The notes: a model not told the origin generated them from the letters alone. Shown: positions 8,844 through 28,343, counted from the first letter of the stretch. The stretch: DNA of 36,019 nt from Bacteroidia bacterium (GCA_025451785.1 JANWJV010000075.1:1-36019); one strand, 5' to 3'. Made by a program: numbers and translations.

Positions 8844-11800
8844 ATGAAAAGGAACATACCATTTCTTCTTTTATTTTTTCTTTCCCTTTTACCGGGGAGA
8901 ACAGTCCTTTCCCAGGAGCTGCGTTTCTTCCATATCACCGCCGAACAAGGTCTATCCGAAGCGGTGGTAAACTGCATTATTGAAGACAGCAAGGGTTTTA
9001 TGTGGTTCGGTACCCAGGATGGCCTCAATCGTTACGATGGCTATGGGATGAAGGTGTTCAAGAACAATCCCGACAATACCAATTCGCTTTCCAACAATAA
9101 TATCTATTCACTGTTCGAAGATAAGAGTGGTATTATATGGATAGGCAGCAACGGTGGCGGTCTCGATGCGTTTAATCCGAAGACAAACTCATTTACACAC
9201 TACCTGGGAACAGCTGGTGATCCGGGTTCATTAAGCAACAACAATGTAAGGGCTATTGTTGAAGATGAGAATGGGATCCTGTGGCTGGGCACTGAAGGCG
9301 GGCTTAACGCTTTTGATATGAAAACAGGTAAGTTCAAAAGGTACGTTCACAAGGAAGGCGATCCCCAGAGCATATCTGATGATTTTATCTGGTGTATCGA
9401 AAAAGATAAAAAAGGCAACTTATGGGTAGGCACACAAAGCGGTGGGCTTAATTACTTCGACAGGAGCACAAGTAAGTTCAAAAGTTATGTGGAGTATGAT
9501 GAAAAGGGTATAATAAAATATCTCAATAGCAATAAAACACGTGCCCTTCATCTTACCAGGGATGGATTGCTTTGGGTAGGCTCTTATGGCGGTGGCCTTG
9601 GGGTCTTCAATCCCAATACAGGAAAATACATGGGTTTTTATTGCCAGGATGAAAAGGCGCTAAACTCATTGAGCGATAATCGCATTACCAGCATTGTTGA
9701 AGATGAGAACGGGGTGCTTTGGATCGGCACCTTTTATAGCGGCCTTAACGAGTTCGACCGCCTCACCAATACCTTCATCAATCATTCGCATAACGAGAAG
9801 AACGTGAATGGCCTCAACAATAACGACATCCGCAGCCTCTATTATGACAAGGAAGGAACTATTTGGGTAGGCACGCAGATCGGCGGCGTGAACGTTCACT
9901 TTGCGGCCTCCAGTAAGTTCAAGCATTATAAAAAGGCGGAAAGCACAGACAATACTTTTAAGAACAATACGATCCTGGCGTTGATGCAAGACAGGGACGA
10001 AGTGCTTTGGATAGGCACGAATGGCGGCGGCCTTTCTTCCTGCGACCGCAAGCGGAATATTTATACCCAGTACCCCGCACTTTCTACAGCCACCAACAAT
10101 GCGGTGCTTTCGCTCTATGAAGATTCAGAGGGTATTCTCTGGGTAGGTACTTGGGGAAGCGGACTTAATTCATACGATAAAAAAACAGGTAAATGTACTG
10201 TACATTCCGGCTTGAGCCGCTTCAATAACAACGGCACAGGTACCATACTTTGTATCATCGAAGATAAAAGCGGACTGATCTGGATCGGAACCTATGGGGC
10301 AGGCTTGCTTTCGTATGATAAAAAAACGAACACCTTTTCTGACTATACAACTGCTGACGGCCTAGGTAACAACAATATTTATGGTTTAATGGAAGATAAA
10401 GAGGGCAATCTTTGGATAGGAACTGATGGAGGGGGGCTCGCGAAAAGAGATGCGAAGAGCGGTGCTTTTAAGCTATACCAGAAATCAGAAAACAAGACCA
10501 GTCTGTCTTCCAACTCTGTGTATTGCATTCACCAGGATAAGGCAGGTACGATATGGGCAGGCACACAGAATGGCCTCAATAGAATGGATGCCTCGGGAAA
10601 TTTCAATGCTTATTACGAGAGGGATGGCCTTCCCAATAACAATATCTACTGCATTCTTGAAGACAAGCAGGGGCATTTTTGGATGAGCACCAACAAAGGT
10701 GTTTGCCGCTTTGATCCCTTGGCAGATAATACTGACGGCAAGGCCTTTCATAGTTATGATGAAAGCGATGGCTTGCAAGGGATCGAGTTCAATCAGGGAG
10801 CCTACTTCCAAAACAAAACTACAGGTGAGATATTCTTGGGAGGCGTGAATGGGTTCAACACCTTTTTTCCCGAGAAGATCACGGGCAATACGCACATCCC
10901 TCCTGTATACATTACTTCCTTTAAGAAATTTGGTAAGGAATCGGTGCTCGACACCACCATTTCCGACAAGCACCGCATTGAGCTCTCATGGAAGGATAAC
11001 TTTTTCTCTTTCGAGTTCGTAGGGCTGGATTTTTTGATGCCTTCCAAGAACAAGTATTCATACAAGCTTGAAGGTGTGGATGAAGATTGGTCGCCGCCAA
11101 GCACAATACGTTATGCCAATTATACTCAGGTAGAAGGCGGTGAATATATTTTCCGCGTGAGGGCAAGTAATAGTGATGGTGTATGGAACGAGACCGGGGC
11201 TGTGCTGCACATAACCATCATACCTCCTTTCTGGAAAACGAAATGGTTCTATACCCTTTGTATTCTCGTCACGCTGGGTGGGATCTTTGCGTTTGTCCGT
11301 TTCCGGACCGCGAGCATTAAGCGCGAGAACAGGGTGCTGGAAGCCAAGGTAGAGGAGAGGACCAAAGAGCTTGCGGAAAAGAACCGCGACATCACCAGCA
11401 GTATCCAGTACGCCAAGAGGATCCAGGAAGCGATACTTCCGCCTACCGAGGAGATATTCAAACATTTTCCTGATGCCTTTATCCTGTACAAACCTAAAGA
11501 CATTGTAAGCGGCGACTTCTATTGGTTCGGTATGAAAGAAGGCAAGAGGATCATTGCCGCGGTTGACTGTACCGGCCACGGTGTTCCTGGTGCCTTCATG
11601 AGCATGATCGGTCATAATCTCTTTAACCAGATCGTGAACGAGAATGGGATCACAAGCCCAGGCAAGATACTCGACAGCCTTCACCAGGGCGTACAGTCTG
11701 CCCTCAAGCAAGGCACCAGCAGTATTGATACTAGCGATGGCATGGATGTGGTGGTATGTTCGTATGACCCGGTAACGAATGAATTGGAATACGCCGGCGC

Positions 11801-12143
11801 CTATCGTCCGCTATTTGTAATTAATGATCAGAACGTGGAGAAGATAGATGCTGACAAATTCCCCATTGGCGGTTCCAAGTTCGATATGGGCAGGAATTTT
11901 ACGAACCATACCCGTAAGATGAACAAAGGTGACACCATTTATATGTTCTCCGATGGATATGCCGACCAGTTTGGCGGTGATAAAGGCAAGAAGTTTATGG
12001 TGAAGCGCTTCAATGACCTGCTGCTTTCAATACAGGATAAACCCATGAAGGACCAGGGTCCGCTCCTCGACCAAAGCATTGAAGCCTGGAAGGGCGCGTA
12101 TATGCAGGTCGACGACATCCTTGTAATTGGAATTAGATTTTGA
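8844..12143 (+). CDS. Propeller-sensor SpoIIE-family PP2C phosphatase
   Basis: A 1099-residue membrane sensor. Residues 1-23 are a signal peptide. Residues 25 to about 665 contain 13 or so blades of the two-component-regulator propeller type (repeated forms of LWIGT, IWVGT and LWLGT with SNNNIYS-like turns), enough for two seven-bladed propellers. A Y_Y_Y-type immunoglobulin-like domain follows (KYSYKLEGVDEDW), then one membrane helix (WFYTLCILVTLGGIFAFV) and a short coiled coil (ENRVLEAKVEERTKELAEK). The C-terminal SpoIIE/PP2C domain has metal-binding segments SGDFYWF, VDCTGHGVPGAFMS, TSDGMDVVV and FSDGYADQFGG. Most propeller sensors end in a histidine kinase; this one ends in a Ser/Thr phosphatase. 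SiaB- and SiaC-like genes lie 1.1-1.7 kb downstream, so it probably plays the SiaA role, dephosphorylating SiaC in response to a periplasmic signal. Confidence 0.9.
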   Translation: MKRNIPFLLLFFLSLLPGRTVLSQELRFFHITAEQGLSEAVVNCIIEDSKGFMWFGTQDGLNRYDGYGMKVFKNNPDNTNSLSNNNIYSLFEDKSGIIWIGSNGGGLDAFNPKTNSFTHYLGTAGDPGSLSNNNVRAIVEDENGILWLGTEGGLNAFDMKTGKFKRYVHKEGDPQSISDDFIWCIEKDKKGNLWVGTQSGGLNYFDRSTSKFKSYVEYDEKGIIKYLNSNKTRALHLTRDGLLWVGSYGGGLGVFNPNTGKYMGFYCQDEKALNSLSDNRITSIVEDENGVLWIGTFYSGLNEFDRLTNTFINHSHNEKNVNGLNNNDIRSLYYDKEGTIWVGTQIGGVNVHFAASSKFKHYKKAESTDNTFKNNTILALMQDRDEVLWIGTNGGGLSSCDRKRNIYTQYPALSTATNNAVLSLYEDSEGILWVGTWGSGLNSYDKKTGKCTVHSGLSRFNNNGTGTILCIIEDKSGLIWIGTYGAGLLSYDKKTNTFSDYTTADGLGNNNIYGLMEDKEGNLWIGTDGGGLAKRDAKSGAFKLYQKSENKTSLSSNSVYCIHQDKAGTIWAGTQNGLNRMDASGNFNAYYERDGLPNNNIYCILEDKQGHFWMSTNKGVCRFDPLADNTDGKAFHSYDESDGLQGIEFNQGAYFQNKTTGEIFLGGVNGFNTFFPEKITGNTHIPPVYITSFKKFGKESVLDTTISDKHRIELSWKDNFFSFEFVGLDFLMPSKNKYSYKLEGVDEDWSPPSTIRYANYTQVEGGEYIFRVRASNSDGVWNETGAVLHITIIPPFWKTKWFYTLCILVTLGGIFAFVRFRTASIKRENRVLEAKVEERTKELAEKNRDITSSIQYAKRIQEAILPPTEEIFKHFPDAFILYKPKDIVSGDFYWFGMKEGKRIIAAVDCTGHGVPGAFMSMIGHNLFNQIVNENGITSPGKILDSLHQGVQSALKQGTSSIDTSDGMDVVVCSYDPVTNELEYAGAYRPLFVINDQNVEKIDADKFPIGGSKFDMGRNFTNHTRKMNKGDTIYMFSDGYADQFGGDKGKKFMVKRFNDLLLSIQDKPMKDQGPLLDQSIEAWKGAYMQVDDILVIGIRF

Positions 12144-14346: not shown

Positions 14347-17300
14347 TTACGCCCTCTTCTTGCCGATCCTGCTGAACAGTTCCTCCAGCAGGTTGATGAA
14401 CTTCTTCAGTACATCAAAGTACAGGGTGATGGCCATTACGAGCGACATGGCCCAGATCACAAAGATGTTCACCCAGAAGGTGTCGAAATAGGTTCCGAAG
14501 ATCTTCTTCTGCGCGGCGAAGAAATGCGCCCTGCCAAGGTCGTAGCTCACCGGGTCGTAGAACACCGGGTCGGCACGCTGAATAAGCTCACCGTCCTTCT
14601 CCAGGATCTTGTCGAGCTCATTATGGTTGCGCACCAGGTCCGAAAGGCTTTCGTTCTCGTAATCGTTCTTCTCCTTGATAAAGGCCTCCTTCTCTTCGTT
14701 GCTCTCGTTCCTCGACGATACGATCTTATCTTTCGCGTTGCTGGCGTTATTGTACTTCTTAATGTAATAGCTGTTAAGATCGGTCAGGTAATCCCTTATC
14801 TTATTGGCAAGGCTCGCGCTGAACTTACCGGCAGCAAGACTGTCGAGATCGCCGAACTTCACCACCTTCACCAGGCTGGTCTCTTTCTTCAGTTCGCTTT
14901 CCATGAGCTTCAGGTCTGCCTTAACCTCTTCCTGCGCGTTCTTGTCGCTCAGGTTGGTCTCGCACTTGTCTACCTTGGCCCTCAGTTTGGGTATCCAATA
15001 GTTCTTCTTGAAGTCGGATATGCTCATATCCTTATCGTACTTAAAGAAGTTCTTTTCGTATTTGTTGTTCTTGAACTGGTTGATGGCCAGCGCCTCGAAT
15101 GCCCAGCGGGAAGCCATGATCTCGCCGGCGAACGGAACGGTGTTCTGCGAGGTGATGGCAGGGTTCAGCTTATCGAACTTCACAATAACACCGCTGAGCA
15201 GCAGCTGGGGAATGATAAGGAAGGGGATAAGGATATAAATGGTAACGGCCGAATTGAAGCTCGCTGAAATATTAAGGCCTAGCATGTTTGCGAAGCAAGA
15301 GGTGGTAAACAGCACCAGCCAGTAATCCAGCATCATGCCCTTGATCTCAAGCACCCAGTTGCCGATAAGGCAGAACATAATGGTTTGGATGGCAGAGAGC
15401 ACGAACATGATCGTGATCTTGGAAAGCAGGTAGCTGCTGCGGCTCAGGTTAAGGAACGATTCCCTTTTCAGGATCTTCCTGTCGCGGATGATCTCCTCGG
15501 CGCTTACAGTAAGGCCGATGAAGAGCGCCACCACCACCGACATGAACAGGTAGGCCGGCATGTTCTCGTTCTCACGGAAGATATAACCCGTTTTGTTAGA
15601 GATGTCTGTATTGTAGAACTTCACCAGGTAACTGAGGATGAAGGCCAGCAAAGGCGCTTCAATAAGGTTGATGCTGAGGTATTGTTTGTTGGTAAGCTTC
15701 GAAAGCACGTCGCGGGTGATAAACACTTTGAACTGCTTCAGCTTATTGGGGATCCGGAAGGTGCTTTCAGGGATATCGCCGGTAGTGACGTTGGCGTCCA
15801 CCTTGGGCTCTATTACTTCCTTGTAATGCTTGTTCCACTCAGCAGGGGATATCTTCCTGTTAAGAGTAAGGTTACCGTATTCGTCCAGTACCTTCGACTC
15901 AATGATATTGAATATCTGTTCGGGATTTACGTTACCGCACTCATGACACTCGCTTTGGTCGCTGTTGATATGGTTAACGATCTTCTTGAAATAGATAACC
16001 GCGTCAACGGGGTTGCCGTAATAGATCGGGTAACCGCCCACGTCGAGGATCATCAGCTTGTCGAACATCTTAAAGATCTCCGACGAAGGCTGGTGGATCA
16101 CCACGAACACGAGCTTGCCTTTCAGGGCCAGTTCCTTCAACAGGTCCATGATGTTTTCTGAGTCCCTCGACGAAAGGCCCGAAGTAGGTTCGTCAACGAA
16201 CAGTACCTGCGGCTCACGGATAAGTTCCAGGGCGATGTTCAAACGTTTACGCTGTCCGCCCGAAATGGTCTTTTCCAGGGGGCTGCCCACCTTCAGGTCG
16301 CGGGTCTCCAAAAGGCCGATGCTGGTAAGCACCTCCAGCACCAAGGTGGTGATGGCCTCATCCTTCAGGTTGCCGAAACAAAGTTTGGCGTTATAAAAAA
16401 GATTCTGAAATACCGTAAGTTCTTCGATCAGCAGGTCGTCCTGCGATACGTGGCCGATCACACCCTCTATCTGGTCCTTCTGGGTATGGATGTTCTTGCC
16501 ATTGATGAGAATTGCGCCTCCGCTTGGAACCTCATTGCTGTTAAGTACGTTCAGCAGCGTTGATTTACCAGCGCCTGAGCCGCCCATGATGCCGATAAGC
16601 CTGCCGGAGTCCTCCGAAAAGTTGATGTCCCTTAATCCCAGCTTGCCACCCTTGAACTTGTACTCCACGTTCTTCACTACCAGAGAGATCTTTGATTTCC
16701 CTTTGTCGCTCATGAAGGTGCCGATGATATCGCTGTAATAGATCGGTTTTACCTTGGAGCTGCGGATGGAAGAGCCCTCGGTGAGGATGTAAACCTTACG
16801 GGGTGTGATGATCTGTCCGTTCAGCAGCAATTCGCTGGTGCCGAAGTACTGGATCACGTACATGGTCACGCTCGGGATGTGCAGCACCCGCATCTGGCCG
16901 GTGATGTTCTCCGAGTAAATGTGTTTTGTTTGTGTATAGGGATTGCTGGGGCTGTTGTCAACCACCAGTATCCTGTTCGATTCAGGGACCTTGGTCTCTG
17001 AATCCTGGATGAACTCCTTGCAAAGATGGAATTCCTCGTTGTCAATGTTAAAGGTTTCCGCCACCGTTTGCACGAACTCCAGCTCCTGCTCAGAGATCTC
17101 GTTGCTGGAATGGATGAACTCCAGCAGACGCACCAACACTACTGCCTTCTGCTTTTGTGTAAGTTCCGAGTTGATCTGGGTACAGATCTTCAGCACCTTT
17201 ACCGAGTTGAGGGAGGTTCTCTTCTGAGAGCCGTCCTTTTTCTTGGAAGTTTGGTGGTGGACCTCCAGGAATTCGTCAAATATCTTGAGGTATTGCTCAA

Positions 17301-17427
17301 CAAGTTCTTCGTTAAGCAGCCCGCGGAGGAAGGTTTGCACAATGCCCCTGCTCGAGCTGGTAACGCCATCTACCTTCGCGATGATAGCGAAGAGCTGCAT
17401 AAGGGCCTTTAATATCCGCTCACTCAT
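14347..17427 (-). CDS. TerB-ABCG-type ABC transporter fusion
   Basis: A 1026-residue ABC half-transporter with unusual extensions. Residues 1-145 are helical and resemble a TerB-like domain (AIIAKVDGVTSSSRGIVQTFL). Residues 175-240 are beta-rich and FHA-like. The ATPase is of the ABCG/White type: Walker A GGSGAGKST (about 282-290), signature ISGGQRKRLN, Walker B VLFVDEPTSGL and switch VVIHQPS. A CHECGNVNPEQ linker with a CxxC pair follows, then an ABC2-type membrane domain (about 600-760). Before the final membrane helix a roughly 170-residue charged, coiled-coil-like loop is inserted. The last helix ends in a basic tail. The substrate is unknown; lipids or surface glycans are common for ABCG relatives. 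ATG 17427 is the first start, with no clear -7 element upstream. Confidence 0.88.
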   Translation of the reverse strand: MSERILKALMQLFAIIAKVDGVTSSSRGIVQTFLRGLLNEELVEQYLKIFDEFLEVHHQTSKKKDGSQKRTSLNSVKVLKICTQINSELTQKQKAVVLVRLLEFIHSSNEISEQELEFVQTVAETFNIDNEEFHLCKEFIQDSETKVPESNRILVVDNSPSNPYTQTKHIYSENITGQMRVLHIPSVTMYVIQYFGTSELLLNGQIITPRKVYILTEGSSIRSSKVKPIYYSDIIGTFMSDKGKSKISLVVKNVEYKFKGGKLGLRDINFSEDSGRLIGIMGGSGAGKSTLLNVLNSNEVPSGGAILINGKNIHTQKDQIEGVIGHVSQDDLLIEELTVFQNLFYNAKLCFGNLKDEAITTLVLEVLTSIGLLETRDLKVGSPLEKTISGGQRKRLNIALELIREPQVLFVDEPTSGLSSRDSENIMDLLKELALKGKLVFVVIHQPSSEIFKMFDKLMILDVGGYPIYYGNPVDAVIYFKKIVNHINSDQSECHECGNVNPEQIFNIIESKVLDEYGNLTLNRKISPAEWNKHYKEVIEPKVDANVTTGDIPESTFRIPNKLKQFKVFITRDVLSKLTNKQYLSINLIEAPLLAFILSYLVKFYNTDISNKTGYIFRENENMPAYLFMSVVVALFIGLTVSAEEIIRDRKILKRESFLNLSRSSYLLSKITIMFVLSAIQTIMFCLIGNWVLEIKGMMLDYWLVLFTTSCFANMLGLNISASFNSAVTIYILIPFLIIPQLLLSGVIVKFDKLNPAITSQNTVPFAGEIMASRWAFEALAINQFKNNKYEKNFFKYDKDMSISDFKKNYWIPKLRAKVDKCETNLSDKNAQEEVKADLKLMESELKKETSLVKVVKFGDLDSLAAGKFSASLANKIRDYLTDLNSYYIKKYNNASNAKDKIVSSRNESNEEKEAFIKEKNDYENESLSDLVRNHNELDKILEKDGELIQRADPVFYDPVSYDLGRAHFFAAQKKIFGTYFDTFWVNIFVIWAMSLVMAITLYFDVLKKFINLLEELFSRIGKKRA

Positions 17428-22480: not shown

Positions 22481-24361
22481 TTAAGGTTTTACGATGAGCA
22501 CCGGCACTTTCACTTTGTGGCGCACCGCGTTAACTGTCGTACCCAGGATGATGTCTTTGAGGCCCCGGTGGCCATGTGCTCCCATTACCAGAAGGTCGGC
22601 GCCCGAAGCGTTCACGATCTCGGGAATGCTCTTCTTGGGATCGCCATAGCCCAGTTCGGTACTGACAACGAACCCCATCGAGGCGATCTCCTCCCCGTAT
22701 TTCTCGAGGTTGCTCTTGTCGGTAGAGGTTTCCATGTCCTCGATCTCGGTGTCCATCATATGGGCTCCGGCCGTTTCCACAATGTGAATGAGAAGGTATT
22801 CCGCATTTTTTCCTCCCTGTGATAGGGCGTTGCTGATGGCGGCGCTGTCGGTAGAGGAGAAGTCGACCGTAACAGCCACTTTCTTGTAAGGCTTTTCCGT
22901 AACGATCTGAAGGTTCTTGACAACGCCTTCCGGGGTAAGTGTTTTGCGGTGCAAAAGTTTTTTGAAGAAAGGGAAGAAGGTAATGTATAGCAGGAAGAGG
23001 CCGGTGATGATCGCAAGGGGGATCACTACGAAATAAATGAGACCAGGATAAGGTGATGTTTCTGCCCATCCCGCGATCTGTTCTCCAAGCCATTTGATGT
23101 TGAGCGATATGATGATACCAGCGGCGATCCAGGCGCAAACCTTCATCCAAAGAGGGATGGCGAAACTGCCCATGGTCTTGCGGTCGCTCGTGAAGTGGAT
23201 AAGAGGAACAACAGCGAATCCCAGCTGCAGGCTCAGGATCACCTGGCTGAGGATAAGCAGGTCCATGGTCTTGCCTTCCCCATAAATGGCAATGACAATG
23301 TAAGCGGGAACAATGGCGATGAGCCGCGTGATAAGGCGTCGCAGCCAGGGCTGGATGCGGAGGTTCAGGTAACCTTCCATCACGATCTGTCCCGAAAGTG
23401 TTCCTGTAAGTGTTGAGCTTTGCCCGGCCGCGATAAGCGCGATGGCGAACAGGGCAGGGGCCATGCTGCCTCCTAACAGATCGGTAAGCAAGTGATGTGC
23501 GTCTTTGATATCGGTCACCCCCGTATGTCCATTACTGTAAAAGGCGGAGGCAGCCAGGATAAGAATGGCGGCGTTCACAAAAAGAGCCATGTTAAGCGCG
23601 ATGCCGGTGTCAATAAGATTGAAGCGGATGGCTTCGGCCACCCCGCCCTTGTTGCGTTCGATCCGCCTTGTTTGTACCAGCGATGAATGCAGGTAAAGGT
23701 TATGCGGCATTACCGTTGCGCCAATGATGCCGATGATGATCTCCAGTGATCCTACAGGTACTGTAGGAACGAGCCCTTTCAGAAGCGGTCCTGCTTCCGG
23801 GCTCACAAAAATGAGCTCAGCTACGAACGCGAGGCCTACGGTGGCGACGAGCATCAGGATGAATAATTCCATTTTCCGCATCCCGAAGCGCTGCAGTACA
23901 AGTAACAGGAACGTATCGAGCACGCAGATGGAGACACCGGCCAGGAGAGGCAGCCCGAAAAGCAACTGCAGGCCAATGGCCATCCCGATCACTTCGGCCA
24001 GGTCGCAGGCGGCAATGGCTATCTCGGCGAGTATCCACAGGAAGAAGTTGACCACAGGGTGGTAATTGGCCCTTGATGCCTGTGCAAGGTCCAGGCCCCG
24101 CACCAGGCCCAGCCGCGCGCTGAGGCTCTGCAGCAGCAAGGCCATAAGGTTGCTCATCACCAATACCCAAAGGAGTGAATAGCCAAAGCGGCTTCCGCCG
24201 GCAATGTCGGTCGCCCAGTTACCAGGGTCCATATACCCCACGCTTACCAGGTAAGCAGGACCGGCAAAGGCCATGAGCTTCTTCCAGAAACTTCTTTTGC
24301 CCCTGGTCTCCACCGAGGAATGTACCTCTGAAAGTGATTTGGTATTTGCCGCGCTGTCCAT
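22481..24361 (-). CDS. mntH: NRAMP-family Mn/Fe transporter fused to a universal stress protein domain
   Basis: A 626-residue fusion. Residues 25 to about 465 are an NRAMP divalent-metal:proton symporter with the metal-site motifs DPGNWATD (D45-N48, TM1) and MPHNLYLHSS (M218-H220, TM6) and about 11 membrane helices. Residues from about 480 to the end form a UspA domain (KKVAVTVDFS...; VMGAHGHRGLKDIILGTTV with the G-x2-G-x9-G-[ST] nucleotide motif), so it probably binds ATP or AMP in the cytosol. Ordinary MntH proteins are about 420 residues; the added domain may tie uptake to energy or stress state. ATG 24361 overlaps the mntR stop by one base (TAATG), so the pair is translationally coupled. 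Confidence 0.93.
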   Translation of the reverse strand: MDSAANTKSLSEVHSSVETRGKRSFWKKLMAFAGPAYLVSVGYMDPGNWATDIAGGSRFGYSLLWVLVMSNLMALLLQSLSARLGLVRGLDLAQASRANYHPVVNFFLWILAEIAIAACDLAEVIGMAIGLQLLFGLPLLAGVSICVLDTFLLLVLQRFGMRKMELFILMLVATVGLAFVAELIFVSPEAGPLLKGLVPTVPVGSLEIIIGIIGATVMPHNLYLHSSLVQTRRIERNKGGVAEAIRFNLIDTGIALNMALFVNAAILILAASAFYSNGHTGVTDIKDAHHLLTDLLGGSMAPALFAIALIAAGQSSTLTGTLSGQIVMEGYLNLRIQPWLRRLITRLIAIVPAYIVIAIYGEGKTMDLLILSQVILSLQLGFAVVPLIHFTSDRKTMGSFAIPLWMKVCAWIAAGIIISLNIKWLGEQIAGWAETSPYPGLIYFVVIPLAIITGLFLLYITFFPFFKKLLHRKTLTPEGVVKNLQIVTEKPYKKVAVTVDFSSTDSAAISNALSQGGKNAEYLLIHIVETAGAHMMDTEIEDMETSTDKSNLEKYGEEIASMGFVVSTELGYGDPKKSIPEIVNASGADLLVMGAHGHRGLKDIILGTTVNAVRHKVKVPVLIVKP

Positions 24362-25014
24362 TACCCGATCAGGATGTTCTTGGCCACCTCGTGGCTGATG
24401 TATAGTTCTTTCTTATTGTCTACAGATATCTTCAGGGACCTGTCGTACTCTATTATATCGGTCACCTGGATCCTGCAGCCGAGAGCCAGGCCCTCTTTGT
24501 CAAGGTAACGGAGGAATGAAGGATCGTGGTCGTCCACTCCTTTCATGATGCCTGAGCTTTTTCGTTTTAGTCCCGAAAGCAGTTTGACCTTTTGCGTTTC
24601 TATCCTTCCTTTTGAATCGGGAATGGGATCGCCGTGTGGATCGAACTTGGGATAATCAAGAAGCTTGTCGATCTGCTCGATTAGCTTGTCGGAGTTTATA
24701 TGCTCCAGTTGTTCCGCCACCATGTGCACCTCGTCCCAGCGGAAGCTCAGCTTCTTGACCAGGAACATTTCCCAGAGGCGATGCTTGCGGATGATCATTA
24801 AGGCGGTCTTTTCGCCCCGGCTGGTCAGCCGAACCCCCTGGTACTTCCGGTAATGGATAAGGTCCTTGGCCGAAAGTTTTTTGAGCATGTCGGTTACCGA
24901 CGAGGCCTTGGTGTCCATGGCCTCCGCGATGGCGTTGGTAGTGATGGGGGCATTGTTCTTTTCCCTGAGCTTGTAGATCGCTTTGAGGTAGTTCTCCTCG
25001 CTGAGGCTGTTCAT
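24361..25014 (-). CDS. mntR: DtxR/MntR-family metal-dependent repressor
   Basis: A 217-residue regulator. The N-terminal winged helix (MNSLSEENYLKAIYKL; ITTNAIAEAMDTKASSVTDMLKKL) is followed by the metal-binding and dimerisation domain (HRLWEMFLVKKL; AEQLEHI; LDYPKFDPHGDPIP) and a C-terminal SH3/FeoA-like domain (LALGCRIQVTDI), as in the longer DtxR/IdeR type. It should bind Mn2+ or Fe2+ and repress metal uptake. The frame continues to a TTG at 25035, but that codon lies in the promoter, so ATG 25014 is the start. A perfect palindrome 34 bp upstream (25048-25067) is the obvious operator. Confidence 0.92.
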   Translation of the reverse strand: MNSLSEENYLKAIYKLREKNNAPITTNAIAEAMDTKASSVTDMLKKLSAKDLIHYRKYQGVRLTSRGEKTALMIIRKHRLWEMFLVKKLSFRWDEVHMVAEQLEHINSDKLIEQIDKLLDYPKFDPHGDPIPDSKGRIETQKVKLLSGLKRKSSGIMKGVDDHDPSFLRYLDKEGLALGCRIQVTDIIEYDRSLKISVDNKKELYISHEVAKNILIG

Positions 25015-25032
25015 GGGTAAGAATATTTTCGA

Positions 25033-25040
25033 CAAATATA
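25033..25040 (-). promoter_or_regulatory. -7 promoter element (TATATTTG) of mntR-mntH
   Basis: A minus-strand perfect TAnnTTTG match, 18 nt before ATG 25014. Its centre is 21 bp from the centre of the operator palindrome. Confidence 0.75.
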
Positions 25041-25047
25041 TGAATTA

Positions 25048-25067
25048 TTTTTAGATATGTCTAAAAA
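25048..25067. promoter_or_regulatory. Predicted MntR/DtxR operator palindrome
   Basis: TTTTTAGA (25048-25055), TATG, TCTAAAAA (25060-25067): perfect 8-bp inverted arms with a 4-bp spacer. It resembles DtxR/MntR-family boxes of the TTTAGG...CCTAAA type. It sits midway between the divergent -7 elements (centres about 21 bp to the left and 20 bp to the right), covering both -33 regions, so one bound dimer could silence both operons. Confidence 0.75.
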
Positions 25068-25073
25068 AAATAT

Positions 25074-25081
25074 TAGTTTTG
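25074..25081 (+). promoter_or_regulatory. -7 promoter element (TAGTTTTG) of the oxidoreductase-Rieske-porin operon
   Basis: A perfect TAnnTTTG match, 13 nt before ATG 25095, with the palindrome in the position of the -33 region. Confidence 0.75.
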
Positions 25082-25094
25082 TAAAAAATAGTTC

Positions 25095-26312
25095 ATGTTA
25101 AAGTACATTTCTCTCCTTTTAATCACAGCCATCGCCCTTGTTTCATGCAGTAAGTTAGTGCCCCCCGAGCCGGCCCCCGAAGAGGTGCTGGCAGGCACCG
25201 TGCCTGGCCTTACACAAGCCCAGGAAAAAGAACACCTGGTAGGGGATGCTTTCTTCGGCAAAGTGTTCGGCACGGCCGACGGCCTTGGTCCCGTGTTCGT
25301 GCAAACGACTTGCTCCAATTGTCATGTAGGCAATGGCAAAGGACATCCTTCCACCATGGTGACACGTTTCGGTAATAACCAGGGAAGTGCATTTGATTAT
25401 CTGAATAATAAAGGAGGAGCCCAACTGCAGCCCAGGGCCATCGCGGGCTATGTGCCTGAATACCTTCCTTCAGAAGCGAACGTAATTACCCGCAGGCTGG
25501 CGCCCATCGTCATGGGGCTTGGCTATATAGCTGCCCTCAGCGACCAAAGCATTTTGGCCAATGCCGATTCAGCCGACCTTAACGGCGACGGCATTTCAGG
25601 AAGGCCTTGTTATGTTGATCCTTCCTCCTTCTTTATCCCTCAGTCCTTTCATATTCCCAATAACGGGAAATACATCGGCCGTTTCGGAAAAAAGGCAGAG
25701 AAGGTAACGCTCCTCGACCAGGTGGTGTTTGCCCTCAAGCAGGACATCGGTATTACTTCCGACTTTGATCCGCAGGATATTTTTAACCCTCTTTCAGGTA
25801 ACTTTACCGGCGACCAGGTGGCTGATCCCGAAGTGAGTTCGTATGTGGTGAACAGCCTTGTGTTCTATATGCGTACGCTCAAAGCGCCCGAGCGCCGAAA
25901 CGCGGAGGACCCTGATGTTAAGGAAGGCGAAAAGCTCTTTGGTCAGATAGGCTGCGAGAGTTGCCATAAGCCTGACCACGTAACTGCCGTATCTGACATT
26001 GAAGCGCTCAGCAACAAGACCTTTCATCCCTTTTCTGATTTTCTGTTGCATGACATGGGCCCCGCGCTCGACGACGGTTATCCCGAAGGCGGCGCGGCAA
26101 GCAACGAGTGGAGAACACCGGCATTGTGGGGATTGGGCTTAGCAGAGACCACCCAGGGCGGCAAAATGTTTTTGCTTCACGATGGCAGGGCAACAGGCAT
26201 AGAGCAAGCCCTGAGCTTCCACGGAGGGGAGTCGCAGAACGCGCGTAACGCGTTCTTTACCCTCTCTGAAACGCAGCGGAAGCAGGTCATTAAATTTCTA
26301 ATGTCACTTTGA
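25095..26312 (+). CDS. Di-heme oxidoreductase (DHOR family) lipoprotein
   Basis: A 405-residue periplasmic c-type cytochrome. The signal ends in lipobox ALVSCSK (C18). Two heme-attachment motifs are visible: CSNCH at 73-77 and CESCH at 287-291. A DLNGDGISG loop (161-169) resembles a calcium-binding loop. The arrangement matches the DHOR ('thiol oxidoreductase' or putative peroxidase) family, whose members in other bacteria often lie in iron-regulated clusters. The exact reaction is not established. It leads an operon divergent from mntR-mntH: its TGA overlaps the Rieske ATG by one base, and the Rieske stop overlaps the porin ATG by four. It probably moves electrons at the periplasmic face during metal handling; this last step is inference. 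Confidence 0.85.
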   Translation: MLKYISLLLITAIALVSCSKLVPPEPAPEEVLAGTVPGLTQAQEKEHLVGDAFFGKVFGTADGLGPVFVQTTCSNCHVGNGKGHPSTMVTRFGNNQGSAFDYLNNKGGAQLQPRAIAGYVPEYLPSEANVITRRLAPIVMGLGYIAALSDQSILANADSADLNGDGISGRPCYVDPSSFFIPQSFHIPNNGKYIGRFGKKAEKVTLLDQVVFALKQDIGITSDFDPQDIFNPLSGNFTGDQVADPEVSSYVVNSLVFYMRTLKAPERRNAEDPDVKEGEKLFGQIGCESCHKPDHVTAVSDIEALSNKTFHPFSDFLLHDMGPALDDGYPEGGAASNEWRTPALWGLGLAETTQGGKMFLLHDGRATGIEQALSFHGGESQNARNAFFTLSETQRKQVIKFLMSL

Positions 26313-26743
26313 TGAGCACACGAAGACAATTTCTCAGAACAGGAGGCACCCTCGCTGTGGCTTGCGGGGCCGGATTAATGGGAGCATTGCTCGAAAGCTG
26401 TGGCTCCGCTAAGACCATTACAGCAGTTTCATCGGGCGATAAGCTCATGGTAAAACGTTCGGACCTGGAAGGAAGCAAAAGCTTTGTAGTGGTTCGCGGC
26501 GCTCCCGCCAACTTGCCTGCTGATATTTACCTGCTGGAAGAGGCGGGCAAGTTTACAGCCCTGCCCATGCTTTGCACGCACAAAGCATGCGACCTGAAGC
26601 CAACAGGAAAAACACTTACCTGCTTTTGCCACGGCAGCGAATTCTCCTCTGTTGGCAAAGTGCTTAAAAGCCCCGCTACTGTTGACCTGCAACCTTACAA
26701 AGTAACCACCGACGATACTTCGATCTACATCCATTTGAAATGA
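26312..26743 (+). CDS. Rieske [2Fe-2S] protein with Tat signal
   Basis: About 143 residues. The N-terminus STRRQFLRTGG is a twin-arginine signal followed by a hydrophobic stretch, with a possible lipobox at LLESCGS. The Rieske ligands are present as CTHKACDL (C and H) and CFCHGSEF (C and H), spaced as in small soluble Rieske ferredoxin-like proteins. The folded cluster protein is therefore exported to the periplasm by Tat. The frame also contains a TTG at 26309, but ATG 26312, overlapping the upstream TGA, is the natural start. With a di-heme cytochrome before it and a porin after it, it looks like an electron-transfer partner of the cytochrome and not part of a bc1 complex, whose cytochrome b is absent. 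Confidence 0.9.
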   Translation: MSTRRQFLRTGGTLAVACGAGLMGALLESCGSAKTITAVSSGDKLMVKRSDLEGSKSFVVVRGAPANLPADIYLLEEAGKFTALPMLCTHKACDLKPTGKTLTCFCHGSEFSSVGKVLKSPATVDLQPYKVTTDDTSIYIHLK

Positions 26744-27942
26744 AAAAAACACTCCTGTATTTTGTCTATTCTCTATTGCCTACTGCCTACTGCCTACTGC
26801 CTACAAGTTCTTACTCGCAGCAGGATAGTTCCTCCTCCTCCCAAAACGCCATCTACAACCGCCCCTTTATTTCGCTGGGAAAAACAAATACCGCTGTAGG
26901 CGGATACCTCGAAGGCAATACCAATTACTTTTCTGAAGATGGTGTTACTGAAGGATTCTCTATGGAGCTCAGGCGCTTCAATATATTTCTCTATTCACGA
27001 ATTCATGAGCGCATAAAGTTTATTTCGGAGCTGGAATTCGAACATGGTACTGAGGAGATCGCGCTGGAGACCGCCTTGCTTGACTTTGAGTTCCATCCCG
27101 CTTTCAACCTGAGGGCAGGTATTCTGCTGCCGCAGATCGGCCTGGTGAACGCCAATCACGATTCCCCCAAATGGGATTTTGTAGAACGCCCCATTTCCTC
27201 CACCGCCATTATTCCTACCACACTTTCAGAAGTGGGTGTGGGATTCCACGGTAAGTTTTTTTCAAACGCGGGAACAGTGGCCTATGACGTGTATCTCATG
27301 AACGGCTTGCAGGACGGGATCATTCTCAATGAAGAGGGCAGGACCCACCTTGCCAGTGGAAAGAACCCCGAAATGTTCGGGGAGGATAACAATGGTGTTC
27401 CTATGTTCAATGCCAGGCTGGCCTTTTCTAACAGCAAGTTGGGCGAGATCGGTCTTTCATGGTACGGCGGGGTTTATAACAGCTTTCGCCTGGATGGAGT
27501 AGAGGTGGATGCTAAAAGAAAGCTTTCGCTTACAGCCTTTGACCTTAGCACCGCTATACGCAAGCTGAAGATACAAGGCGAACTTGCGTTTGTGAAAATA
27601 CAAGTACCCGAGGGCTTAGAGGAGTTGTACGGAACAAATCAGTACGGTGCCTTCCTCGAATTGGGCCATCCTATTCTGAAAAAGAAAATGCTTGGCTTTG
27701 AGGACGCGCAGCTCTCAGTACATCTCCGTGCTGAAAAGGCAGACTTTAACCAGGGCACTTTTGTTTTTGATGGGTCTAAAATTGGAGATGAGGTAAGCGC
27801 TCTTTCATTTGGCCTTAGCTGGAGGCCTCTTGCCGGATCGGTGATCAGGGCTAACTACCGGTACCACTGGATCTACGATTTTTTCGGGAATCCTCCCGCG
27901 CACCTTGGAGGCATACAAGTGGGTATCGCCACTTATTTTTGA
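26740..27942 (+). CDS. Outer-membrane beta-barrel porin (phosphate-selective porin O/P-like)
   Basis: A 400-residue outer-membrane barrel. The signal peptide is followed by a Gln/Ser-rich mature start and alternating beta-strands, and the chain ends in aromatic ATYF, the usual barrel C-terminus. Segments such as GGYLEGNTNYFSEDG, SMELRRFNIFLYSRIHERIKFISELEFEHG and LRAGILLPQIGLVN are typical of the OprO/P-like porins of Bacteroidota. ATG overlaps the Rieske stop (ATGA), so it belongs to the redox operon. It may admit or export the operon's substrate, plausibly a metal complex. Residues 9-22 of the signal peptide are encoded by a heptamer array, giving a 7-residue repeat LLPTAYC / LLPTSSY. Confidence 0.85.
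   Translation: MKKTLLYFVYSLLPTAYCLLPTSSYSQQDSSSSSQNAIYNRPFISLGKTNTAVGGYLEGNTNYFSEDGVTEGFSMELRRFNIFLYSRIHERIKFISELEFEHGTEEIALETALLDFEFHPAFNLRAGILLPQIGLVNANHDSPKWDFVERPISSTAIIPTTLSEVGVGFHGKFFSNAGTVAYDVYLMNGLQDGIILNEEGRTHLASGKNPEMFGEDNNGVPMFNARLAFSNSKLGEIGLSWYGGVYNSFRLDGVEVDAKRKLSLTAFDLSTAIRKLKIQGELAFVKIQVPEGLEELYGTNQYGAFLELGHPILKKKMLGFEDAQLSVHLRAEKADFNQGTFVFDGSKIGDEVSALSFGLSWRPLAGSVIRANYRYHWIYDFFGNPPAHLGGIQVGIATYF
26764..26805. repeat. Period-7 array inside the porin signal-peptide codons
   Basis: Units gtctatt, ctctatt, gcctact (three times) and gcctaca keep one register over 42 bp within the coding sequence. Because 7 and 3 are coprime, three units make a 21-bp, 7-codon protein repeat. Confidence 0.9.
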
Positions 27943-28343
27943 CCCTCCAGCTTTACGAACGTATAGGTTCGTTGCGTTACGGCCTTTGATTTACCGTCAG
28001 TAAGATCGAAGGTGATGCTTTGCCCGCTAATGATGCCTTTGTACTCCTGCTCCCCTGTCATCCCTTTTACTTTGAACTTTATCTTGCACTTTTTTACTTT
28101 GTACTTTCCGCTCAGCACCATGTCCACATTTCCCTTGTGGAACCAGGTGATCACTTTTTTATAGTTGTTTACCGAGGTGGAGGCGATCACGCTGCCATCC
28201 TCGTAGAACCGGAGCACCGCCGAATTCTCATTGTCGATCTTGAAAACATAAATGCCCCCGTATTCCGGCCTACAGGTGTCACCCTTAAAGCTTGTCAGCA
28301 GCACGATAAATACCAATCCCAATATGTATTTCATAGTTGTCAT
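27933..28343 (-). CDS. Small exported protein, function unknown
   Basis: About 136 residues with an N-terminal signal sequence (MKYILGLVFIVLLTSFKG). The mature part is beta-rich (AVLRFYEDGSVIAST, VDMVLSGKYKVKKCKIKFKVKG, GIISGQSITFDL), like a small lipocalin- or META-type barrel, but no family is assigned. ATG 28343 and ATG 28334 are both possible; neither has a clear ribosome site, and the second gives a cleaner signal peptide. It is the third gene of a minus-strand operon (10 nt after the TPR gene) and overlaps the end of the porin gene tail-to-tail by 10 bp. Confidence 0.7.
   Translation of the reverse strand: MTTMKYILGLVFIVLLTSFKGDTCRPEYGGIYVFKIDNENSAVLRFYEDGSVIASTSVNNYKKVITWFHKGNVDMVLSGKYKVKKCKIKFKVKGMTGEQEYKGIISGQSITFDLTDGKSKAVTQRTYTFVKLEGQK

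Follow-up and report, generated by a model that had tools for sequence, protein, structure and literature searches.

How manganese passes through the outer membrane and the periplasm is understood in only a few bacteria. The locus described here lies in a 36,019-nucleotide stretch from a Bacteroidia bacterium (GCA_025451785.1, JANWJV010000075.1:1–36019), which was analyzed as a whole and is called the window, with positions counted from its first letter. It raises the question of whether a single palindromic operator governs both a regulator–importer pair, mntR-mntH, and a divergent operon for a di-heme DHOR lipoprotein, a Rieske protein, and a porin (the trio), and of what this trio might do. 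A sequence-only reading had proposed that one operator controls both operons; comparison with related genomes strongly supports this proposal, the same box being common to both promoter sets. The favored reading is that the locus probably encodes a divalent-metal acquisition module, induced by starvation for Mn (or Mn/Fe) and equipped with a redox or peroxidase arm made up of the Rieske and di-heme proteins. The features concerned are the following.

22481–24361, minus strand: mntH, Nramp-type Mn2+ importer of 626 aa with a C-terminal universal stress protein (Usp) domain (PF01566, PF00582, NF001923 MntH)
24361–25014, minus strand: mntR, DtxR/MntR-family regulator with an FeoA domain, ATG at 25014 (Pfam, NCBIfam, ligand columns)
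25033–25040, minus strand: −7 element TATATTTG of the mntR-mntH promoter, Bacteroidota type TAnnTTTG, 7 bp from the palindrome end
25048–25067, no strand assigned: MntR box (candidate operator) TTTTTAGATATGTCTAAAAA, with the core TTAGATATGTCTAA at 25051–25064
25074–25081, plus strand: −7 element TAGTTTTG of the DHOR operon promoter, TAnnTTTG, 6 bp from the palindrome end
25095–26312, plus strand: short-form DHOR lipoprotein with two CxxCH motifs (PF06537, invariant columns, AlphaFold/Foldseek)
26312–26743, plus strand: Rieske 2Fe-2S lipoprotein with a twin-arginine translocation (Tat)-type RR signal and CTHKAC...CFCHGS (PF00355, TIGR01409, alignment)
26740–27942, plus strand: 16-strand outer-membrane porin with a glutamate ladder (AlphaFold, Foldseek, ladder columns)

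The two operons are separated by an 80-bp gap containing the palindrome TTTTTAGA-TATG-TCTAAAAA, whose 8-bp arms are perfect and whose 4-bp spacer is itself non-palindromic. The arrangement described earlier, a perfect palindrome between two −7 elements that face outward, was confirmed from the sequence, with gaps of 7 and 6 bp. Since the −33 regions expected for the two promoters both overlap the palindrome, the latter offers a place for a shared repressor. Within the operons, mntR ends in a stop codon that overlaps the start of mntH at 24361, and the end of each trio reading frame overlaps the start of the next. The left-hand genes proved to be mntR and mntH, with DtxR/MntR and FeoA domain matches in the former and Nramp/MntH and Usp matches in the latter. 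On the right, the DHOR (PF06537) and Rieske (PF00355) assignments stood; the porin is below threshold for Porin_O_P, yet AlphaFold models it as a 16-strand barrel. A scan for further palindromes, suggested at the same time, found the perfect palindrome nowhere else in the genome bin (3.04 Mb), where the runners-up carry two mismatches. In the window, two matches with at most three mismatches were found versus 0.24 expected by chance, and the copies with two or three mismatches in the organism's own genome number 35 versus 23 for the reversed control, a moderate excess only. A sigma-70 scan returned sites no more numerous than in shuffled sequences, as expected for Bacteroidota, and an Rfam scan of the window gave no matches.

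Is this gene order a local accident? When the DHOR protein was used as the query against 395 genomes of the class, short-form relatives, 46–68% identical across most of their length, were identified in 58 genomes (60 loci), and the surroundings of these loci were searched with the window proteins. The order DHOR-Rieske-porin, whose conservation had been named beforehand as a test, occurs in 52 of the 60 loci, or in 52 of 56 once those truncated by or lying at a contig end are set aside. These truncated or terminal loci account for four of the eight exceptions; the other four form one family (L043, L079, L081, and L082) that keeps DHOR and the porin without a Rieske gene between them, so that the Rieske protein may be replaceable; mntR is kept in this family, as is the box where readable. 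A porin was found in all 56 loci reaching far enough. The mntR gene lies divergently within 700 bp of DHOR in 36/60 loci, for which the chance is about 5 × 10−4 per genome, and an MntR gene is present in 57 of the 58 trio genomes versus 253 of the 337 others (p = 7 × 10−6). The same trio order is also found in named genomes of Pedobacter, Sphingobacterium, Flavobacterium, Chryseobacterium, Arenibacter, Balneolaceae, and Ignavibacteriaceae, as well as in some Gemmatimonadota bins.

The palindrome recurs with the genes. Iterative training on DHOR upstream regions yielded a symmetric 20-bp weight matrix, which was applied with leave-one-out scoring; box sites score about 9–24.5 bits, and 99% of shuffled regions remain below 10.2. 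The box, with the consensus TTAGRYNNRYCTAA, was detected upstream of 53/60 DHOR genes, and a TAnnTTTG element follows it within 20 nt toward DHOR at 22 of these 53 loci, versus 1.06 expected. It also precedes 17 of the 22 testable DHOR operons away from mntR. Conversely, when the matrix was applied to the mntR(-mntH) promoters of 21 trio-less genomes, 20 of them showed a strong site, positioned at about −46 to −74. As a control, 617 further upstream regions from the DHOR loci were scored; only two reached at least 12 bits, and both are genuine boxes one gene further out, in L075 and L086. Among named genomes, some of which may share species with the training genomes, 39/48 short-form DHOR loci have a box score of at least 10, whereas 0/32 long-form (imelysin-type) loci do, with a long-form maximum of 6.8. 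The one genome that carries the trio and has no DtxR-family gene (G043, 99% complete) has no box before the trio. At one locus (L075), a small extra gene stands between the box and DHOR. Genome-wide counts of the strict pattern WTTAGRYNNRYCTAAW were tried as regulon evidence and dropped, since most genomes are no higher than the reversed control; the regulon evidence is thus limited to sites before mntR or DHOR.

Because the box is common to DHOR operons and mntR promoters and is missing from long-form DHOR genes and from G043, the palindrome is very probably the MntR operator. Indeed, even though the related sequences are not independent, its retention as the same short sequence in both mntR-linked and unlinked contexts would be hard to explain without MntR binding, and we infer from the comparison that MntR binds the box and represses from it. 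Divergent operons may come to share the DNA between them by chance, in which case the box would serve mntR-mntH only and the right-hand operon would be under its own control. Such mere proximity is extremely improbable, given the boxes kept before DHOR operons away from mntR and a locus (L086) in which mntH, DHOR, Rieske, and porin form a single operon behind the box. Shared MntR control of both operons is, on these comparisons, considered highly likely.

Which metal would this regulator sense? The window protein matches PF01325 (62.6 bits) and PF02742 (102 bits), corresponding to the N-terminal helix-turn-helix and the metal-binding/dimerization domain, and it is the only DtxR-family (PF02742) gene product in the genome bin, which is 84.6% complete. 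It misses all NCBIfam MntR equivalog cut-offs (best NF047407, 151 versus 350 bits), and the name MntR therefore rests on its ligands and on the linkage to mntH. The metal ligands are N8, H78, E82, H97, E101, E104, and H105; the last six are kept in 34/34 full-length regulators and N8 in 32/34. Bacillus subtilis MntR has Asp at the position corresponding to N8, and Glu at the ligand position where DtxR and IdeR have Cys102 marks the MntR-like state. The gene beside mntR in relatives is mntH or, alternatively, that of a ZIP transporter. From this ligand set and these neighbors, Mn is the most likely metal, with Fe possible; the related repressor TroR of Treponema denticola has been described as dependent on both Mn and Fe (PMC2628430).

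Several further observations concern this gene pair. The ZIP gene replaces mntH after mntR in L035, L038, L049, L078, L079, L091, and L123. In the window MntH, the Nramp domain spans residues 49–402 and the Usp domain residues 492–625, and MntH proteins of similar length (matches of 613–625 aa) occur in several relatives. Six trio-bearing genomes (G014, G145, G231, G245, G158, and G228) have two or three MntR-type genes, one of them beside the trio, hinting at dedicated regulators.

Iron enters the question through a second type of cluster. Several of the long-form DHOR genes examined have an imelysin gene before them, and the order porin-Rieske-imelysin-DHOR is found in several Bacteroidota (L044, L048, L205, and L220). 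In one of these (L048:520–8657, genome G037), a single strand carries dtxR, a dtxR fused to FeoA domains, feoB (in two frames), a glutamate-ladder porin, Rieske, imelysin, and long DHOR. Porin, Rieske, and DHOR thus have, judging from gene content, a second version that includes imelysin, follows another order, and is linked through feoB to the import of ferrous iron. It is conceivable, if unlikely, that the trio is itself an iron-uptake device of this kind, with the DtxR-family regulator sensing Fe2+ or both metals. The cluster beside feoB speaks for it, as do the implication of imelysin/DUF1111 operons in iron uptake (PMC3143127) and, in Bizionia, an iron regulator that controls adjacent Rieske and cytochrome c genes along with imelysin and a gene of the Feo system (PMC9478572). 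However, the regulator has E101, not Cys, at the position separating MntR from DtxR/IdeR, its usual neighbors are mntH or ZIP, and the short DHOR clusters are without imelysin. In the window, peptidase M75 (imelysin) is not among the identified genes between smpB and a tetratricopeptide repeat (TPR) gene, where 27933–28343 is without assignment.

The DHOR protein scores 221 bits against PF06537 (gathering cut-off 22). It has a lipobox cysteine, C18, and heme sites at C73–H77 and C287–H291; both CxxCH motifs and the columns H319, H362, and H376 are invariant in 44/44 relatives, and M321 is kept in 43/44. The best Foldseek matches of its AlphaFold model, with a predicted local distance difference test (pLDDT) value of 82.5, are hydrazine synthase gamma and di-heme cytochrome c peroxidases. 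A phmmer search against the PDB returned no relative of DHOR, and a profile search gave short, weak cytochrome c matches only. DHOR is provisionally assigned to the di-heme cytochrome c peroxidase superfamily.

In the Rieske protein, the 2Fe-2S ligands C88, H90, C104, and H107 are invariant in 33 aligned proteins, and the closest solved relatives are Rieske proteins of the b6f and bc1 complexes. The extra disulfide of the bc1/b6f type is represented by C93 and C106; both cysteines are present in 15/33 proteins and neither in 18/33, with never a single one, and this both-or-neither pattern suggests two redox variants. No clear acidic export signal was seen after the lipobox cysteine of the lipoproteins, and a periplasmic face is therefore assumed for them.

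These two proteins invite a reading as peroxide defense, in which MntR would induce the trio when Mn is scarce and Mn-dependent protection fails, the DHOR peroxidase would be fed by Rieske, and the porin would be a general channel with no preference for metals. The nearest solved folds of DHOR are those of di-heme cytochrome c peroxidases, and the potential of a Rieske protein suits a donor to such enzymes. On the other hand, the neighbors of the trio are metal importers (mntH, ZIP, and, in L048, feoB) and not other stress genes, and the porin, present in every far-reaching locus and with its glutamate ladder, is left unexplained. We regard this reading as rather improbable.

The porin scores 17.6 bits against Porin_O_P (PF07396), below the gathering cut-off of 20.9, and neither phmmer against the PDB nor a profile search found a porin relative. 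Its AlphaFold model (pLDDT 88) is a 16-strand barrel whose top Foldseek matches are OprP, PorB, and OprO. A glutamate ladder, E97/E99/E101, alternates on one strand and is, with E110, invariant in 46/46 trio porins. The ladder is also present in 6/6 porins of the long-DHOR/imelysin clusters and is missing in 8/10 Porin_O_P paralogues from this and related genomes; of the two paralogues that bear it, one is followed by a gene for a flavin mononucleotide (FMN)-binding domain and the other is flanked by small cytochrome-like genes. At L263/L264 (G314:C1, about 81–82 kb), a glutamate-ladder porin stands in tandem with an FMN-binding-domain protein, which suggests a flavin-based analogue of the pairing of porin and redox protein. 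OprP uses an arginine ladder for phosphate; by analogy, divalent cations would be the expected partners of a glutamate ladder, and any such selectivity in this porin is speculative.

Taken together, the components would fit the following scheme. Metal-loaded MntR (Mn2+, possibly Fe2+) would repress both operons through the single box, and starvation for Mn (or Mn/Fe) would free the operator and turn both on together. The left operon would supply the regulator and the inner-membrane importer MntH, and the right one the outer-envelope half, in which the porin would admit divalent metal through its glutamate ladder. The Rieske and DHOR lipoproteins would be a likely redox pair on the periplasmic side, managing the redox environment of the metal. 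They might keep it as importable M2+ by removing peroxide, with Rieske donating to a DHOR peroxidase, and/or by re-reducing oxidized metal such as Mn(III/IV), before M2+ passes from the porin to MntH, ZIP, or FeoB. Since these three importers all carry divalent ions, the redox arm should favor M2+. The earlier description of the trio as a metal-responsive electron-transfer and outer-membrane transport unit fits its partners, MntH and ZIP here and FeoB and imelysin in related clusters. A role of the trio in metal acquisition appears quite likely from the genomic context, while any specific direction of electron flow is tentative at best.

Several observations weigh against this acquisition reading. 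About a quarter of the unlinked operons have no recognizable box (L088, L089, L100, L119, and L122). The Rieske gene is missing in one lineage and the disulfide is lost in more than half of the aligned proteins (18/33), so that a fixed high potential is not required. The DHOR model is of low confidence around the first heme site, and its resemblance to di-heme peroxidases amounts to TM scores over the query of 0.27–0.37, with Foldseek E values from 3 × 10−4 (BccP) to 4 × 10−3 and probabilities of 0.99–1.0. The known associations of Porin_O_P relatives are otherwise with anions, and we infer the inward orientation of the ladder from residue alternation. Finally, some trio loci lie among heavy-metal efflux genes (CadA and CzcA-type resistance-nodulation-division (RND)), which leaves room for a role other than uptake. 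Membership in heavy-metal resistance islands, i.e., a function in metal efflux or detoxification, could be argued from the CadA-like ATPase found within 7 kb in 11/61 loci and the RND/outer-membrane efflux protein in 13/61. It is nevertheless very unlikely: an operator common to an importer and its repressor predicts induction at low metal, and most loci, the window included, are without nearby efflux genes.

The starvation-induced acquisition module remains the preferred reading, and a more specific form of it can be drawn. In a redox-coupled route of metal acquisition, switched on by Mn starvation, the ladder porin and a Rieske/di-heme relay would reduce Mn(III/IV), or shield Mn(II)/Fe(II) from oxidation, at the cell envelope and hand M2+ to MntH, ZIP, or FeoB, a system possibly ancestral in the Bacteroidota–Gemmatimonadota group. 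This version is doubtful; if true, periplasmic "reductive manganese uptake" would be a system without known counterpart. More generally, the locus provides a concrete conserved operon, with its predicted operator, that recurs in related phyla and across many Bacteroidota, cultured Pedobacter, Sphingobacterium, Flavobacterium, and Chryseobacterium among them. It suggests a connection between metal starvation and both an uncharacterized di-heme family and a Rieske protein that stands on its own.

Elsewhere in the window, two large genes were noted. One (14347–17427, minus strand) encodes a 1026-aa half of an ATP-binding cassette (ABC) transporter with an ATPase, an ABC-2 membrane domain, and a weak N-terminal TerB-like domain. 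The other (8844–12143, plus strand) encodes a 1099-aa two-component-type propeller protein that ends in a SpoIIE phosphatase domain instead of a kinase.

How does the trio compare with known systems? The di-heme peroxidases NeCCP, BccP, and YhjA share two CxxCH hemes with DHOR and are among its best fold matches, at low TM scores over the query; DHOR, in contrast, is a lipoprotein in a Rieske/porin operon, with no phmmer match in the PDB and weak profile matches. OprO and OprP resemble the trio porin in their 16-strand barrel, but the latter is under the family cut-off and has a glutamate ladder where OprP has one of arginines. MnoP, a Mn-selective outer-membrane channel of Bradyrhizobium co-regulated with mntH, is, when compared by description alone, likewise a porin-type channel in an MntH regulon; to our knowledge, it has no redox partners.

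In Stenotrophomonas maltophilia, a TBDR-pTFP locus beside mntH is controlled by MntR and induced by combined Mn and Fe limitation (PMC13217887, 2026). It shares with the trio an MntR box beside mntR/mntH and the combination of an outer-membrane protein with a periplasmic redox-fold protein, although there these are a TonB-dependent receptor and a thioredoxin fold, found in few lineages, instead of a porin, a Rieske protein, and a di-heme protein. Clusters of imelysin (ICMP/IrpA, peptidase M75) with DUF1111/DHOR are related to iron uptake and have been likened in function to EfeUOB (Xu et al. 2011, PMC3143127). They, too, place a DHOR-family di-heme protein in a metal-controlled envelope cluster, and some Bacteroidota versions share the porin and Rieske type. 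The trio differs in its short DHOR form (about 405 versus 465 aa), the lack of imelysin, the order DHOR-Rieske-porin, and its predicted MntR box, versus Fur there. In Bizionia argentinensis, adjacent genes for cytochrome c (RS03000) and Rieske (RS03005) rank, with an imelysin-like gene and a Feo-associated gene, among those whose transcripts depend most on the iron regulator MliR; the cytochrome c and Rieske genes were taken by the authors to be respiratory (PMC9478572), and they may correspond to the DHOR-Rieske pair. The present locus may explain such cytochrome c and Rieske genes in metal-regulation transcriptomes. A literature search for DHOR plus imelysin returned nothing in open-access sources. 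The earlier remark that no described system of the present composition was known holds within the open-access papers that were searched, where no MntR-box-controlled DHOR-Rieske-porin operon was found. The component families are known; what appears to be new among metalloregulated envelope clusters for metal acquisition is their combination under a predicted MntR box.

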